From positions 1 through 64,000 of the forward strand of contig NZ_BOMB01000049.1 of NCBI RefSeq assembly GCF_016861975.1: a DNA stretch of 64,000 bases, given 5' to 3'. The notes beneath the pieces were generated by a model. That model ran no database searches and was not told where the DNA came from. It was given only the letters and a program-made list of their open reading frames with translations. This document shows positions 19,847 to 49,424 of this stretch, piece after piece (position 1 is the stretch's first letter; each line of letters opens with the position of its first letter). The stretch comes from Actinocatenispora rupis. GTDB lineage: Bacteria; Actinomycetota; Actinomycetes; Mycobacteriales; Micromonosporaceae. The position numbers and the translations under genes were made by a program.

Positions 19847-19848
19847 AT

Positions 19849-20282
19849 TTTGTACGCCAGCGTGCCTGTGCGGCTCGCTGGCGTACTGGTGTGACTCCAG
19901 CGGAAGCGCGTTCGCTGGCGTATTGGTGTGACTCCAGTCGCCGGGTGTTGCTTGCTCTCGTGCTGCCTGTTTCCCCGGTGTTCGCCGCCCCTGCCGGGGC
20001 TTGGGGGTGCGAGAGAGGACGCTGTCCTCTCTCGCGCTCTCTCCTGCCAAAGGGGGCGAAGCCCCCTTTGGAAACCCCCTGAAGTAGGCAGATGCTTTCG
20101 CGTTCGCCTCTCGTTGCCGACCCAAGTCCTTGTGCGCCAACCGGAGTTGGCTTCATTCACCGGCGTGCTGCTACCCCGAGAAGTAGGCGACCTCTTGACC
20201 AGCCGCGGTCACCGGTGTTCGCGGGTGATGCTCGTTGTCCCGCCCTCCCGCTACCCACGTGATGGTGGCGCCCTTCGGCGCC
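19849..20282 (-). repeat. Dispersed structured repeat, copy A (core only)
   Basis: About 434 bp almost identical (minus strand) to 24247-24677 and 48991-49424. It lies between the convergent genes eccD and FHA and abuts the eccD stop. Read on the minus strand it begins with GGCGCC-GAAG-GGCGCC (20267-20282), contains the 11-bp hairpin CCAAAGGGGGC / GCCCCCTTTGG (20047-20071), a 12-bp hairpin GCGAGAGAGGAC / GTCCTCTCTCGC, a GCCCC/GGGGC hairpin, a ~37-bp direct repeat (CTGGAGTCACACCA units) and a terminal inverted repeat GTACGCCAGCG / CGCTGGCGTAC. It lacks the 5' hairpin module of copies B and C. No coding function is supported. Confidence 0.9.
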
Positions 20283-22919: not shown

Positions 22920-23981
22920 GTGGTCCACACCTCCACGCGCACGAAGCCGGCAGCCACCACCGTGCGCCATCGCCGACGCTTCCCGGTACGCCCCGGCCAG
23001 GTCGCCGTGTGGCAGCTCGCCGTCGTCGCCACCGTGCTCACCGACCCGACCCGCTGGCAGGGCATGGTCGTCGGTGGCGCCGGACTCGTCGCCGTCGGCC
23101 TCACCGCCCTGCCCTGGCGCGGCCGCTGGCTCTACCAGTGGGCCGGCACCGCGATCGCGTTCCGCGCCCGCCGTACGCCACCCGCGCCCGCCGGCGACCC
23201 CCTCGACGCCGTACTCCCCGGCCTGCGCGTGCACACCGTCGCCGACCGGGCCGGCAACCGTACCGGCGTCGCCGGCGACGGGCGCTGGTGGTCCGCCGTG
23301 CTGCGCGTCGGCCACGGCACCGACCCGCTGGCGCTCCTCGACCCGCTACGCAAGACGTACGACCGGGCCGACCTGCCGCCCGCCGCCGTCCAACTCGTCA
23401 CCTGGACCGTGCCCGTCCCCGACAGCGACCCCGTACGCACCACCTGGCTCGCCGTACGGTTCTCGCCCACCGCCTGCCCGGCCGCCGTCGAAGCACGCGG
23501 CGGCGGCGTACAAGGAGCGCTCAGCGCCACCGCCAACTGCGCCCTCGGCCTCGCCCGCGACCTCGCCGAAGCCGGCATCGACGCCACCGTCCTCGACGCG
23601 CCCGACCTCCGCGACGACCTCACCGTCGCCCTCGGCGCCACCCCCGACACCCCGGCCCGCGTCGTCGAACGCTGGCGCCACCAGGAAATCGGCACCGGCC
23701 GGCAGTCCACCTACCGGCCCAGTACCCGCGTCTCACCCCGCGAACTCCTCACCGCCGCCACCCCCGGCACCGCCGCCTTCACCACCACCTCACTCACCCT
23801 CACCCGCCCCGACACCTCCACCACCCCCGACCTCCGCCTCCTCCTCCGCATCGCCACCCCACCCGCCCAGACCCGCCTCACCCCCGACACCCCCGCCCGC
23901 GCCCTCCACCTCCCCCTCTACCGCCTCGACGGCACCCACGCCCCCGCCACAACCACCACCCTTCCTTTGGCTTTGCCGTGA
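22920..23981 (+). CDS. eccE: EccE-like type VII secretion subunit
   Basis: 353 aa. Basic N-terminus, two close membrane helices (GQVAVWQLAVVATVL and MVVGGAGLVAVGLTAL), then a cytosolic domain with HTVADRAGNRTGVAGDGRWW, matching EccE layout. EccE packs at the periphery of the channel. The C-terminal third is Pro/Thr-rich (TTTSLTLTRPDTSTTPD) and the protein is short for the family; the stop codon TGA (23979-23981) coincides with the first base of repeat copy B, so the C-terminus may have been altered by the repeat. GTG start, divergent from eccB. Confidence 0.8.
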   Translation: MVHTSTRTKPAATTVRHRRRFPVRPGQVAVWQLAVVATVLTDPTRWQGMVVGGAGLVAVGLTALPWRGRWLYQWAGTAIAFRARRTPPAPAGDPLDAVLPGLRVHTVADRAGNRTGVAGDGRWWSAVLRVGHGTDPLALLDPLRKTYDRADLPPAAVQLVTWTVPVPDSDPVRTTWLAVRFSPTACPAAVEARGGGVQGALSATANCALGLARDLAEAGIDATVLDAPDLRDDLTVALGATPDTPARVVERWRHQEIGTGRQSTYRPSTRVSPRELLTAATPGTAAFTTTSLTLTRPDTSTTPDLRLLLRIATPPAQTRLTPDTPARALHLPLYRLDGTHAPATTTTLPLALP

Positions 23982-24677
23982 CGCTGCGGCGGCCCCGTTT
24001 GGCTGCTGGCGGCGCCGGACCGAGACTTGTGTGCTGACGCACACGGCGCCTCGTCCCGGCTTGCCAGCAACCAAACGGGACTCGCCTCGCTCCCGTCCCC
24101 TCACATCACCGTTACTGCAAAAATCAAGCTATATAAAGGATGTCGCCGCCTGGCGCTGGCTTGATGGCCGGCGCACCGTTCCACCGACCCGGCGCCACTG
24201 CCGGAATCCGTTCCGCCGCACGGGAATGCACCGGGTGCGCCGCCTGGGCGCCGAAGGGCGCCACCATCACCCGGGTAGCGGGAGGGCGGGCAACGAGCAT
24301 CACCCGCGAACACCGGTGACCGCGGCTGGTCAAGTGGTCGCCTACTTTTTGGGGTAGCAGTACGCCGGTGAATGAAGCCGAGTCCGGTTGTCGCACAAGG
24401 ACTTGGGTCGGTGTCGAGAGGCGAACGCGAAAGCATCTGCCTACTTCAGGGGGTTTCCAAAGGGGGCTTCGCCCCCTGTGGCAGGAGAGAGCGCGAGAGA
24501 GGACAGGGTCCTCTCTCGCACCCCCATGCCCCGGCAGGGGCGCTCAGCACCGGGGAAAGATGCACCACAAGGACGACGCGAACGCGCACCATTGGAGTCG
24601 CACAAGACACCAGTGAACGCGCTCCGCTGGAGTCACACCAGTACGCCAGCGAGCCGCAAAGGCACGCTGGCGTACAA
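23981..24677 (+). repeat. Dispersed structured repeat, copy B (long form)
   Basis: About 697 bp. Contains the 5' module (23981-24246) shared only with copy C and the core (24247-24677) shared with copies A and C. It begins at the eccE stop codon and ends about 26 bp before the stop of the convergent esterase gene. Core hairpin CCAAAGGGGGC / GCCCCCTGTGG (24457-24481, one mismatch in this copy), hairpin GCGAGAGAGGAC / GTCCTCTCTCGC, and terminal inverted repeat GTACGCCAGCG (24641-24651) / CGCTGGCGTAC (24665-24675). No other gene is supported in this >700-bp stretch. Confidence 0.9.
23994..24079 (+). ncRNA. Covarying long hairpin of repeat copy B
   Basis: 86 nt. Outer 17-position stem: left arm CCCGTTTGGCTGCTGGC (23994-24010), right arm GCCAGCAACCAAACGGG (24063-24079), with one C-A mismatch. 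The inner part pairs again (GCCGG with CCGGC, then CGAG with CTCG) and ends in GTGTG / CACAC with loop CTGACG. The same fold forms in copy C with a different stem sequence. Supports a folded RNA; expression is unproven. Confidence 0.75.
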
Positions 24678-32091: not shown

Positions 32092-32958
<867 letters not shown>

Positions 32959-45691: not shown

Positions 45692-48661
45692 GTGTTGACG
45701 ATGCAGGACGCCCTGCTGGCCTTGCAGCGGTACTGGACCGACCGCGGCTGCATGATCGTGCAACCGTTCAACACCGAGGTCGGTGCCGGCACCATGAACC
45801 CGGCGACGATCCTGCGGGTCCTCGGCCCCGAGCCCTGGCACGTGGCGTACGTGGAGCCGAGCGTGCGGCCCGACGACTCGCGGTACGGGGAGAACCCGAA
45901 CCGGTTGCAGACGCACACCCAGTTCCAGGTGATCCTGAAGCCGGACCCGGGCAACCCGGTCGAGGTGTACCTGGGGTCGCTGGAGGCGCTGGGCATCGAC
46001 ATCCGCGCGCACGACGTGCGGTTCGTCGAGGACAACTGGGCCGCGCCCGCCCTCGGCGCCTGGGGGCTGGGCTGGGAGGTCTGGCTGGACGGCCTGGAGA
46101 TCACCCAGTTCACGTACTTCCAGCAGGCCGGTGGCCGGTCCGTCGAGCCGGTCTCCGTCGAGATCACGTACGGCATCGAGCGCATCCTGATGGCCCTGCA
46201 GAACGTCGGCCACTTCAAGGACATCGCGTACGCCGACGGCATCACGTACGGCGAGGTCTTCGGCCAGTCCGAGTACGAGATGTCGCGTTACTACCTGGAC
46301 GACGCGGACGTGTCGATCAACCAGGAGCTGTTCGAGGCGTACGCGACCGAGGCGCGCCGGATGCTGGACGCCCGGCTGCCCGTGCCCGCGCACGACTACG
46401 TGCTCAAGTGCTCGCACACGTTCAACGTGCTCGACGCGCGGGGCGCGATCTCCACCACCGAGCGGGCCCGCGCGTTCGGCCGGATGCGGGCGCTGGCCCG
46501 CGAGGTGTCCGCGCTGTGGGCCGAGCGCCGCGAGGAGCTGGGCTACCCGCTGGGCGTCGTGGCGCCGCCCGAGCCGGCCGTCCGGCCCGAGCTGCCGACC
46601 GTGACCGGCCCGCGCACCGTACTGTTCGAGATCGGTCTGGAGGAGCTGCCGCCGCACGAGGTGACGCAGCAGATCGCCGCGGTACGTACCGCGGTGACGG
46701 AGAAGCTGGCCGCCACCCGGCTCGCGCACGGCGCGGTCACCGTCGACGGCACCCCGCGGCGGATCGCCGTCCTGGTGGCCGACGTGGCAGACCGCGAGCC
46801 CGACGCGGAGAAGACGATGCGCGGGCCGAAGCTCGCCGCGGCGTACGACGCGGACGGCAAGCCGACGAAGGCCGCGCAGGGCTTCGCCCGCGGCCGCGGC
46901 GTACCGGTGGAGGCGTTGGAACGCATCGAGGTCGGCGGCGTCGAGCACGTCGGCGTCACCGTGCCCGAGCCCGGCCGCCCGGCCGCCGAGGTGCTGTCCG
47001 ACCTGTTCGCCGCCGTCGTCACCGAGCTGCGCGCCGACAAGAACATGCGCTGGCGCGACGGGAAGCTGTCGTTCACCCGGCCGATCCGCTGGCTGACCGC
47101 GCTGTACGGCGAGACCGCCGTGCCGGTGGCCGTGTCGTCCCTGCTCTCCGGCCGTACGACCAGGATCCGGCGCACCGCCGAGACCCCCGTGGTCGACGTA
47201 CCGTCGGCGGAGTCCTATGTGGACCTGCTGGCCTCGCACGGGATCACGCTCGGCGAGGCCGACCGGCGGGCCGCGATCGTCGCCCGCGCCGGCGAGCTCG
47301 CCACCGCCGCCGGCGGCGTCCTCGACGTCGACGGCGAGGCCGCCGTCATCGCCGAGGTCACCAACCTGGTCGAGGAGCCCAACCCGCTGGTCGGCTCGTT
47401 CGACCCCAAGTACCTGGAGCTGCCGCCGCAGATCCTCACCACGGTGATGCGCAAGCACCAGCGGTACCTGCCGGTCCGCGACGCCGACGGCACGCTGCTG
47501 CCGCACTTCGTCGCCGTCGCCAACGGCCCCATCGACACCGACGCCGTACGTGCCGGCAACGAGGCCGTGCTGCGCGCCCGGTACGAGGACGCCGCGTTCT
47601 TCTGGCGCGCCGACCTCAAGATCGCGCCCGTCGACATGAAGGCCGGACTGGCCAAGCTCACGTTCGCCGACAAGCTCGGCTCGATGGCCGACCGCGCCGA
47701 GCGGATCGCCGCCACCGCAACGGATCTGGCCCGCCTCGTCGACCTCGCCGACGCCGAACGGTCCACAGTGGACCGTGCCGGCGCGCTGGCCAAGTTCGAC
47801 CTCGCCTCCAGCATGGTCATCGAACTGTCCAGCCTCGCCGGCACCATGGCCCGCGAGTACGCCAAGCGCGCCGGCGAGACCGACGCCGTCGCCACCGCCC
47901 TGTACGAGATGGAACTGCCCCGCGGCGGCGGCGGCGACGTGCCCACCACCGTGCCCGGCGCGCTGCTCGCCCTCGCCGACCGGCTCGACCTGCTCACCGG
48001 CCTGTCCGCGGTCGGCGAGAAGGCCACCGGCAGCTCCGACCCGTTCGGGTTGCGCCGCGCCGCCGTCGGCGTCGTCACCATCCTCCGCGCCTTCCCGCAG
48101 CTCGCCCCCATCACGCTCACCGCCGGGCTGCGCGCCGCCGCCGCACACGCCGCCGTCGACGTCACCGACGAGGTCCTCGCCGACCTGCACGAGTTCCTCG
48201 TCCGCCGGTACGAGCAGCAGCTCACCGACGCCGGCCACGACCACCACCACATCGACGCCGTACTCCCGCTCGCCGACGCGCCAGCCCACGCCGACGCCAC
48301 CCTCGCCGAACTGGGCAAACTCGCCCACGACGACGACTTCGTCGACCTTGCCCAGGCCCTCGCCCGCGTCCGCCGCATCGTCCCCGCCGGCACCCCCGCC
48401 GCCTACGACCCCACCGCCCTCGTCGAACCCGCCGAACAGGCCCTCCACCGCGCCACCGCCGCCGTCGCCGTCGACCTCCCCGAACACCCCACCCTCGCCA
48501 CCTTCGTCCCCGTCGCCGGCGCTCTCACCACCCCCATCAACACCTTCTTCGACGACGTCCTCGTCATGGCCGAAGACCCCAACCTCCGAGCCTCCCGCCT
48601 CGGACTCCTGGCAACAATCCGAGACCTCGCAGCCCCCCTCCTCGACTGGTCTGCGCTGTAA
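45692..48661 (+). CDS. glyS: Glycyl-tRNA synthetase, fused alpha-beta type
   Basis: 989 aa. Residues 1-290 are the alpha (catalytic) chain: [46 protein letters not shown]; residues ~310-989 are the beta chain: [15 protein letters not shown]-like start, [33 protein letters not shown], and C-terminal [24 protein letters not shown]. Charges tRNA-Gly. Most actinobacteria use the unrelated alpha-2 enzyme, so this fused bacterial type is unusual. GTG 45692 used (ATG 45701 alternative). A -10-like TAGAAT lies near 45612. No T-box was seen. Repeat copy C begins 3 bp after the stop; the gene contains the palindrome at 47761-47773. Confidence 0.95.
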
Positions 48662-48664
48662 CGG

Positions 48665-49424
48665 ACGCTGCGGCGAACCGATTCGTCCGCTCGCGGCGCC
48701 GATCCGCAGCTTGTGTGCTGACGCACACGGCGCTGCGTCTCGGCTTGCGAGCGAACGAATCGGACTCGCCTCGCTCCCGTCCCCCCACATCACCGTTACT
48801 GCAAAAACCAAGCTGTACAAGGGATGTCGCCGCCCGGAGCTGGCTTGATGGCCGGCGCACCGTTCCACCGCCCCGACGCCACCGCCGGAATCCCTTCCGC
48901 CGCACGGGAATGCACCGGGCGCACCCCGTTGTCCCAGTGAGCGGGCCGTACGAGGGCGGCAGCGTCGAGTGTGGGTGTAGTACCGCGCTGGGCGCCGAAG
49001 GGCGCCACCATCACCCGGGTGGCGGGAGGGCGGGGCAACGAGCATCACCCGCGAACACCGGTGACTGTGGCTGGTCAAGAGGTCGCCTACTTTTCGGGGT
49101 AGCAGTACGCCGGTGAATGAGGCCAAGTCCGGTTGTCGCACAAGGACTTGGGTCGGTGTCGAGAGGCGAACGCGAAAGCATCTGCCTACTTCAGGGGGTT
49201 TCCAAAGGGGGCTTCGCCCCCTTTGGCAGGAGAGAGCGCGAGAGAGGACAGCGTCCTCTCTCGCACCCCCAAGCCCCGGCAGGGGCGGCGAACACCGGGG
49301 AAACAGACAGCACGAGAGCGAGGAACACCCGGCGACTGGAGTCACACATAGACGCCAGCGAACGCGCTTCCGCTGGAGTCACACCAGTACGCCAGCGAGC
49401 CGCAAAGGCACGCCGGCGTACAAA
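48665..49424 (+). repeat. Dispersed structured repeat, copy C (long form)
   Basis: About 760 bp. 5' module (48665-48990) as in copy B, with about 60 extra bp near 48920-48985, and core (48991-49424) as in copies A and B. It lies between glyS and the convergent acyltransferase, ending directly before the latter's terminator. Core hairpin CCAAAGGGGGC / GCCCCCTTTGG (49202-49226) and GCGAGAGAGGAC / GTCCTCTCTCGC (49238-49264). The terminal inverted repeat has one mismatch in this copy. No gene is supported in the stretch 48662-49465. Confidence 0.9.
48678..48763 (+). ncRNA. Covarying long hairpin of repeat copy C
   Basis: 86 nt, same fold as at 23994-24079 but with a different stem: CCGATTCGTCCGCTCGC (48678-48694) pairs with GCGAGCGAACGAATCGG (48747-48763), keeping the same C-A mismatch. 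The apical part GTGTG-CTGACG-CACAC is identical in both copies. Supports selection for structure; transcription is unproven. Confidence 0.75.

Follow-up and report, generated by a model that had tools for sequence, protein, structure and literature searches.

The 64,000-nucleotide stretch of Actinocatenispora rupis DNA that was analysed here and is called the window (contig NZ_BOMB01000049.1 of assembly GCF_016861975.1, positions 1 to 64,000) carries two copies of a hairpin element that is probably a short-form member of a miniature, non-autonomous mobile family built around a conserved structured core. The element is dispersed, patchy in its occurrence and multi-copy, its stems covary, and one of its strands is kept foldable. 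Long relatives, some of them in the same genome, bear terminal inverted repeats beside TA or CTAG. A preliminary description of this DNA had read the two loci as copies of an RNA fold under selection; the covariation of the fold was borne out but the two-locus RNA reading was not, since the hairpins belong to a dispersed, mobile-looking repeat.

The two copies in the window

The copies were scored with two covariance models, R1 for the whole hairpin element and R2 for the cross-phylum core, and both copies were among the sequences from which these models were built, which applies to the bit scores in the following lines.

23980 to 24112, minus (the best-folding strand): copy 1 of the hairpin element, whole model R1 (match 1-133, 151.3 bits)
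23990 to 24080: copy 1, cross-phylum model R2 (82.9 bits)
24011 to 24013, minus-strand fold: copy 1, outer internal loop, left side, plus GGC / minus GCC
24027 to 24028, minus-strand fold: copy 1, inner internal loop, left side, plus TT / minus AA
24029 to 24044, minus: copy 1, apical hairpin GTGTGC-TGAC-GCACAC, its stem kept across phyla but required by the search pattern
24045 to 24047, minus-strand fold: copy 1, inner internal loop, right side, plus GGC / minus GCC
24061 to 24062, minus-strand fold: copy 1, outer internal loop, right side, plus TT / minus AA
48664 to 48796, minus: copy 2 of the hairpin element, whole model R1 (155.3 bits)
48674 to 48764: copy 2, cross-phylum model R2 (84.8 bits)
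48695 to 48746, minus: copy 2, outer loop from left side to right side, offsets as in copy 1 (outer loop 48695-48697/48745-48746, inner loop 48711-48712/48729-48731)
24113 to 24241, plus: flank common to the two copies past the hairpin (mate 48797-48925)

When 23981-24090 was compared directly with 48665-48774, each 110 nt long, the count given in the preliminary description was reproduced: there are 22 differences, 18 of them form nine pairs that are Watson-Crick in both copies, and the remaining four are at positions 12, 13, 39 and 45. Folded as RNA, copies 1 and 2 had z scores of -6.9 and -7.5 on the plus strand and -10.0 and -10.5 on the minus strand, and folded as DNA the scores were -4.5 and -5.9 on the plus strand and -7.1 and -7.7 on the minus strand; every one of these folds beat 200 of 200 shuffles. 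The flanks had been said to differ much less than the hairpin. This is true of the right flank, where 5 of 60 positions differ, but not of the left flank, where 39 of 60 differ, the left flanks being unrelated because each copy sits behind another gene. Over 23980-24241 (repeat D2) the two copies are 87% identical. Past the hairpin both copies are followed by a second dispersed repeat (24288-24576 and 49033-49321), which also stands without the hairpin and inverted at 19848-20282; these stretches are 284-435 nt long and 92-95% alike.

Covariation among the copies of the genome

In the genome of A. rupis, a 7.8-Mb draft, BLAST with the element and its tail found 39 places, 24 of which hold the hairpin part and 15 the tail (the second repeat) only. 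Twenty-two of the hairpin places were aligned, a tandem partial copy (G000:C7:193639) and a contig-end copy (G000:C14:1-120) being omitted. In the minus-strand structure 96.1% of the 894 cells of this alignment are paired and 19 of the 41 pairs show two-sided changes, with near-even splits at some pairs (G-C in 13 copies and C-G in 9; A-U in 11 and G-C in 10). The covariation score was 0.313. Shuffled alignments gave 0.133 ± 0.009 and slid registers no more than 0.058, and on all five measures used every one of 500 shuffles fell short of the real alignment. The covariance model and the further copies that the preliminary description had called for thus favoured real covariation. On a FastTree tree, which was made from the same alignment columns as the pair counts, 55 compensated events were inferred, compared to a mean of 3 and a maximum of 16 in 200 random re-pairings; besides these there were 21 one-sided events without loss of pairing and 26 that ended in a non-pair, and several G-C/C-G swaps had no intermediates among the copies. 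In our judgement the double changes outnumber the single ones beyond what is expected for stepwise mutation, and some of them probably arose when one arm of the palindrome was copied onto the other.

The strand that is kept foldable

On the minus strand of the own-genome copies G.T was found in 59 cells and A.C in 5 of the 894, 32 of the 59 G.T cells coming from just two pairs, and one U.G pair is retained in 21 of the 22 copies. In the cross-phylum alignment described below A.G was found 98 times compared to 10 for C.T, and G.T 64 times compared to 25 for A.C. A helix can be held by G.U and G.A pairs, and less well by the complementary C.A and C.U. The excess of G.U and G.A over their complements therefore points to the strand antisense to the upstream gene as the one that is kept foldable, and not to the plus strand, on which the preliminary description would have looked for reads. 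This asymmetry fits RNA and single-stranded DNA alike and makes no choice between them.

The core across phyla

Both internal loops are one motif, CAAG opposite CGCCG, inverted relative to each other. In copy 1 the distance between them is 13 nt, taken up by 11 pairs and a two-by-two mismatch, and they are arranged about an approximate two-fold axis; in the modelled fold this geometry would invite a dimeric binder. A scan of a species-genome collection with a core pattern returned 69 stretches, and the core recurs in Actinomycetota, Betaproteobacteria and bins of Bacillota. The pattern required TT-GTGTGC, GCACAC-GG and a CTTG, so that the conservation of those letters across phyla is partly built in; the outer stems, the G.A pairs and the left GCC were not imposed by it. 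The alignment behind R2 has 46 rows, consisting of 45 of 59 cores together with locus L079. The 14 other cores, among them three of the four Bacillota rows, were omitted by eye, mostly as near-duplicates or odd ones, and all 14 are matched by R2 at 46.5 bits or more. In the 46 rows the minus-strand AA is invariant in both loops (46 of 46 rows each), and the minus-strand GCC is found in 34 rows on the left side of the outer loop and in 45 rows on the right side of the inner loop. Two-sided changes occur in 23 of 29 pairs and the covariation score is 0.480, compared to 0.132 in shuffles.

R1 matches ten of 41 genomes. Four of these belong to the genus, the own genome among them, five to other genera of the same family and one to a different family. 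R2, run on 65 of the 69 pattern loci after four that looked unrelated (L094, L111, L117 and L132) had been left out, matched 63 of them, all but L093 and L099, which is partly so by construction. In nine genomes reached through pattern loci it gave 45, 43, 19, 13, 12, 7, 4, 2 and 1 matches, and the genome match counts of both R1 and R2 include echoes of one palindrome on the opposite strand. Named isolates with an R2 match include Actinocatenispora comari, Allorhizocola rhizosphaerae, Aromatoleum toluolicum, Azoarcus sp. Aa7 and Azospira sp. I13; the other sources are mostly metagenome bins of Solirubrobacterales, Thermoleophilia, Betaproteobacteria and Clostridia-type Bacillota, and for Bacillota the evidence consists of metagenome bins alone. 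With 17 candidates scored per genome, R2 was found in at least 4 of 246 sampled genomes of the phylum, the own genome included. The family is rare overall and patchy.

The preliminary description knew no named RNA family with this structure, and in agreement with this no hairpin of the element in the window or at eight other loci had a match above the gathering cut-off in Rfam 15, while an Rfam scan of 23900-24200 by E-value returned two weak microRNA models only. The sole Rfam match above cut-off in the window is a c-di-AMP riboswitch (RF00379) at 32734-32898 on the minus strand, with 53.1 bits. Viral contigs gave no match to the core pattern. Plasmid and phage searches gave none for the window copy, and there was none for L357 in plasmids or for L079 in phages; there was one weak match, of L098 to a Burkholderia stagnalis replicon, in which R2 finds a head-to-head pair.

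Several arrangements were observed at individual loci. Head-to-head pairs of elements, an arrangement reminiscent of REPIN organisation, stand in L084 (707-796/812-901), L114 (3974-4063/4079-4168), L092 (6403-6494/6550-6657) and L407 (1494-1583/1616-1669). In L055 (genome G007) 1279-1780 is a tandem array of 4.5 units of 111 bp, whose hairpins, judged by eye, bear the same TT/GGC loops on a different apical stem, GCCTAC/GTAGGC. Also by eye, what is apparently the same convergent gene pair in four Actinomycetota bins (L080, L081, L086 and L116) holds elements that are oppositely oriented within similar outer stems, as if the core had been flipped, and the element is abutted, with almost no spacer, by a tRNA-Ser-like 3' end in L131 and L140 and by a tRNA-like 5' end in L102 and L109.

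Long relatives and their ends

Twenty-eight long copies from the own genome (G000), the congeners G001 and G003 and the bins G289 and G290 were measured by arm alignment, and 21 of them span 160-171 bp. The other seven spans are 76 (at a contig end), 150, 181, 195, 201, 209 and 243 bp, several of them because the alignment entered the flanks; two long copies with such an overrun are 165 bp end to end by pattern. The terminal inverted repeats of the long relatives adjoin TA, often as CTAG. Most of 20 inspected copies in G002 lie between AGGGTCTGTTTCG and its complement or variants beside CTAG, with ends of the form AGGGTCTGTTTCG..CGAAACAGACCCT, and exact AGGGTCTGTTTCG sites number 44 in G002 and none in the own genome. 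Five own-genome copies (L285-L289) and copies of G003 have GGGCGTGTCT.. ends, and G003 copies are also given with AGGGCGTGTCTTC.. ends. Beside TA or CTAG as well are the ends in the Bacillota bin G289 (GGGCCTGTTCCC or TAGC..TTTAACTT), in two copies of the Actinomycetota bin G290 (AGTGTCCTGAGTCGTT) and in the Actinomycetota bin G285 (AGTGGTGTGACC, seen at contig ends only). At one gene end an empty and an occupied site can be compared: G001 has a single CTAG, which reads as the TAG stop of the gene, G002 has CTAG-element-CTAG, and the own genome carries its own subfamily at that place.

A candidate helper was found in G001, where an element with a PF13340 (DUF4096) transposase, which we take to be of IS5 type, begins with GAGCGTGTCTTCATAGG, close to GGGCGTGTCTTCATAGCC of the G002 copy L210. 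When the core was looked for inside PF13340 insertion sequences, 13 loci gave two insignificant matches (E 0.34 and 0.43). The solitary AGGGTCTGTTTCG ends that were examined, a part of the 44 sites, were solo or truncated ends or short core-less palindromes, and no full insertion sequence was found among them.

Placement at the ends of genes

The window copies stand directly behind the following two genes.

22920 to 23981, plus: EccE (type VII secretion) gene, open reading frame with Pfam PF11203 (6.1e-24)
45692 to 48661, plus: glycyl-tRNA synthetase (alpha and beta) gene, open reading frame with PF02091 and PF02092

The last two bases of the EccE gene, in its TGA stop, are shared with the foot of copy 1, and the stop of the glycyl-tRNA synthetase gene ends two bases ahead of copy 2. 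Among 23 own-genome copies, which are the 22 aligned ones and the contig-end copy, 17 start within 13 bp of the stop of a gene that reads toward them. Of 61 cross-phylum loci used, 53 had a gene call on both sides, and in 43 of these the gene on the left is directed at the element, with a median distance of 4 bp; the genes in these counts are open reading frames chosen by codon-position GC and not annotations. Ten of the 20 G002 copies are at a TAG that ends a coding-like frame by our threshold. CTAG itself is depleted 15-fold in the window, with 5 sites compared to 75.7 expected, and this scarcity together with the TAG-ending frames at the G002 copies would explain the placement of the long forms at stop codons. 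A hand tally with an assumed origin, on which we do not rely, gave no apparent replication-strand bias in G002. Behind the glyS stop, in the place of the element, a short and plain terminator-like hairpin is seen by eye in G001 and G003, and it is possible that the element stands in for it there.

A proposed mechanism and the points against it

A probable explanation is that IS5-type DDE transposases, which would cut at CTAG, mobilise the long relatives in trans. The scarce CTAG can form the end of a gene (..C TAG), and if insertions within genes were lost the survivors would be found at stop codons. The core may be kept because a factor binds the folded antisense strand, either as single-stranded DNA in replication or repair or as RNA read through from the convergent side, and such a putative factor, most likely a dimer, would see in the pair of CAAG/CGCCG loops a site of two-fold symmetry. 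The hairpin may in addition do the work of the terminator-like hairpin found in the two congeners.

Several observations weigh against this explanation. There is only one clean pair of an empty and an occupied site, and at a second locus G002 has about 200 extra bases beside the element. The PF13340 partner in G001 is without its other end, no intact partner with identical ends was found, and G002, which has the freshest copies, has no PF13340 match. The ends vary between lineages and the core is constant, which is odd for an ordinary miniature inverted-repeat transposable element (MITE), and short palindromes exist that have the same ends and no room for the core; if these moved on their own, the core is unnecessary for that movement. 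The window copies are without clear terminal repeats or target duplication, and the short forms are, like them, mostly without clear ends. The orientation in G002 looks balanced, with the TAG-ending frame on the left in 6 of 20 copies and on the right in 5, one copy being counted on both sides, but the short forms (about 100-133 bp) are strongly oriented, a bias for which insertion by itself gives no reason. Either copies in one orientation persist better or the short form reaches its sites by a different route.

Alternative explanations

The change of ends around a constant core can also be turned into an account of its own, which we entertain tentatively: the core itself, as structured single-stranded DNA or RNA, would be the mobile module, recognised through its two-fold-symmetric CAAG/CGCCG loop pair by a conserved dimeric factor, repeatedly captured between unrelated transposon ends, spread over at least three phyla and settling at stop codons, as a passenger of passengers. 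The preliminary description held that the covariation is hard to explain without selection. The covariation is real, but double changes alone are no proof of selection as the arms of a palindrome can be copied onto each other, and a purely neutral origin, in which template switching copies the arms and the double changes need no selection, would fit the 55 compensated events against 21 one-sided and 26 to a non-pair as well as the swaps without intermediates. We consider it unlikely, because arm copying would not keep unpaired loops invariant or G.U and G.A pairs specific to one strand; it would erase the AA/GCC loops, the U.G pair and the G.A pairs, all of which persist. We hold that selection and arm copying both act on the hairpin. 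That the minus strand encodes a trans-acting small RNA or a cis-regulatory RNA family would agree with the strand asymmetry and the tandem G.A, and a possible relative, the Beta-proteobacterial repeat element (BRE), overlaps an 80-nt transcript in Bordetella pertussis according to its report (PMC3110155). No sigma-70-type promoter-like site, however, was found in 23900-24250 by a scan that covered that promoter type only, and the genes that flank the two window copies are unrelated, which makes an RNA family rather improbable.

The position behind stops, often between convergent genes, and in the place of the terminator-like hairpin of two congeners at glyS, is what is expected of an ordinary transcription terminator or mRNA-end hairpin that is under selection and does not move. 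We give this little credence, since no GC-rich stem with a T-run behind it was recognised as terminator-like in 23900-24250, around copy 1, the loops are sequence-specific and conserved across phyla, and a relative has dispersed, near-identical copies with inverted ends. A repetitive extragenic palindromic (REP)-type palindrome moved through single-stranded DNA by a Y1 (RAYT) transposase would likewise be extragenic, lie behind genes and have a strand-specific fold, and it would accommodate the head-to-head pairs in L084, L114, L092 and L407. Three genomes that bear copies (G001, G002 and G019) have Y1_Tnp, but it is absent from the seven others (G000, G003, G007, G012, G020, G021 and G034) and present in five without R1 matches (G011, G022, G023, G030 and G035). 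Published tagged REPs are 20-40 bp long with GTAG or CGTC ends (PMC3733652). The Y1/RAYT transposase was rejected as the mover as it has no clear co-occurrence with the copies, and a REP origin seems very unlikely. Integron attC sites lie behind genes and fold on the bottom strand into hairpins whose unpaired bases are conserved. An attC-like site used by a tyrosine recombinase would thus share with the element the position just behind stops, the folding antisense strand, the variable stems and the conserved unpaired bases, but by eye no ends of the consensus RYYYAAC/GTTRRRY were seen, it is the middle of the element and not its ends that is conserved, the own-genome copies are dispersed with one tandem pair and no cassette array was seen, and the relatives have transposon-like ends; we regard this as highly improbable.

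Relation to known systems and implications

The mobile, non-autonomous family that we favour resembles the MITEs of IS5-type insertion sequences in being short and non-coding, in the terminal inverted repeats of its long relatives beside TA or CTAG and in the presence within the genus of an insertion sequence with a near-identical end. It differs from them in that the structured core is constant across phyla while the ends change and in that the window copies have no clear ends. REP palindromes of the GTAG and CGTC families are described as extragenic, lying mainly behind genes and present in many phyla, the GTAG type being tied to RAYT transposases (Di Nocera 2013, PMC3733652); they are like the element in being palindromes behind genes and unlike it in their shortness and tagged ends. 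BRE, the nearest lead in the literature, is about 90 bp long with 69% GC, multi-copy, mostly intergenic, tandem in places and reported from Azoarcus EbN1 and Burkholderiales (Hot et al. 2011, PMC3110155). R2 finds copies in the kin of Azoarcus and in Burkholderiales as well; the parts of that paper considered here describe no fold and list only Betaproteobacteria. By this likeness of description BRE may be the published betaproteobacterial branch of the family. In the published literature within our coverage, outside of which most subscription journals fall, nothing was recognised as this core, and we describe the element as MITE-like, its structured interior being conserved.

Miniature transposons are as a rule identified from their ends, and what lies between is regarded as filler. 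In this family it is the ends that change, and paired mutations maintain the interior across phyla, one of the two strands being favoured. It can thus be tested whether such elements contain a folded module under selection, which factor would bind it, and whether a passenger of transposons may supply the 3' ends of host genes.
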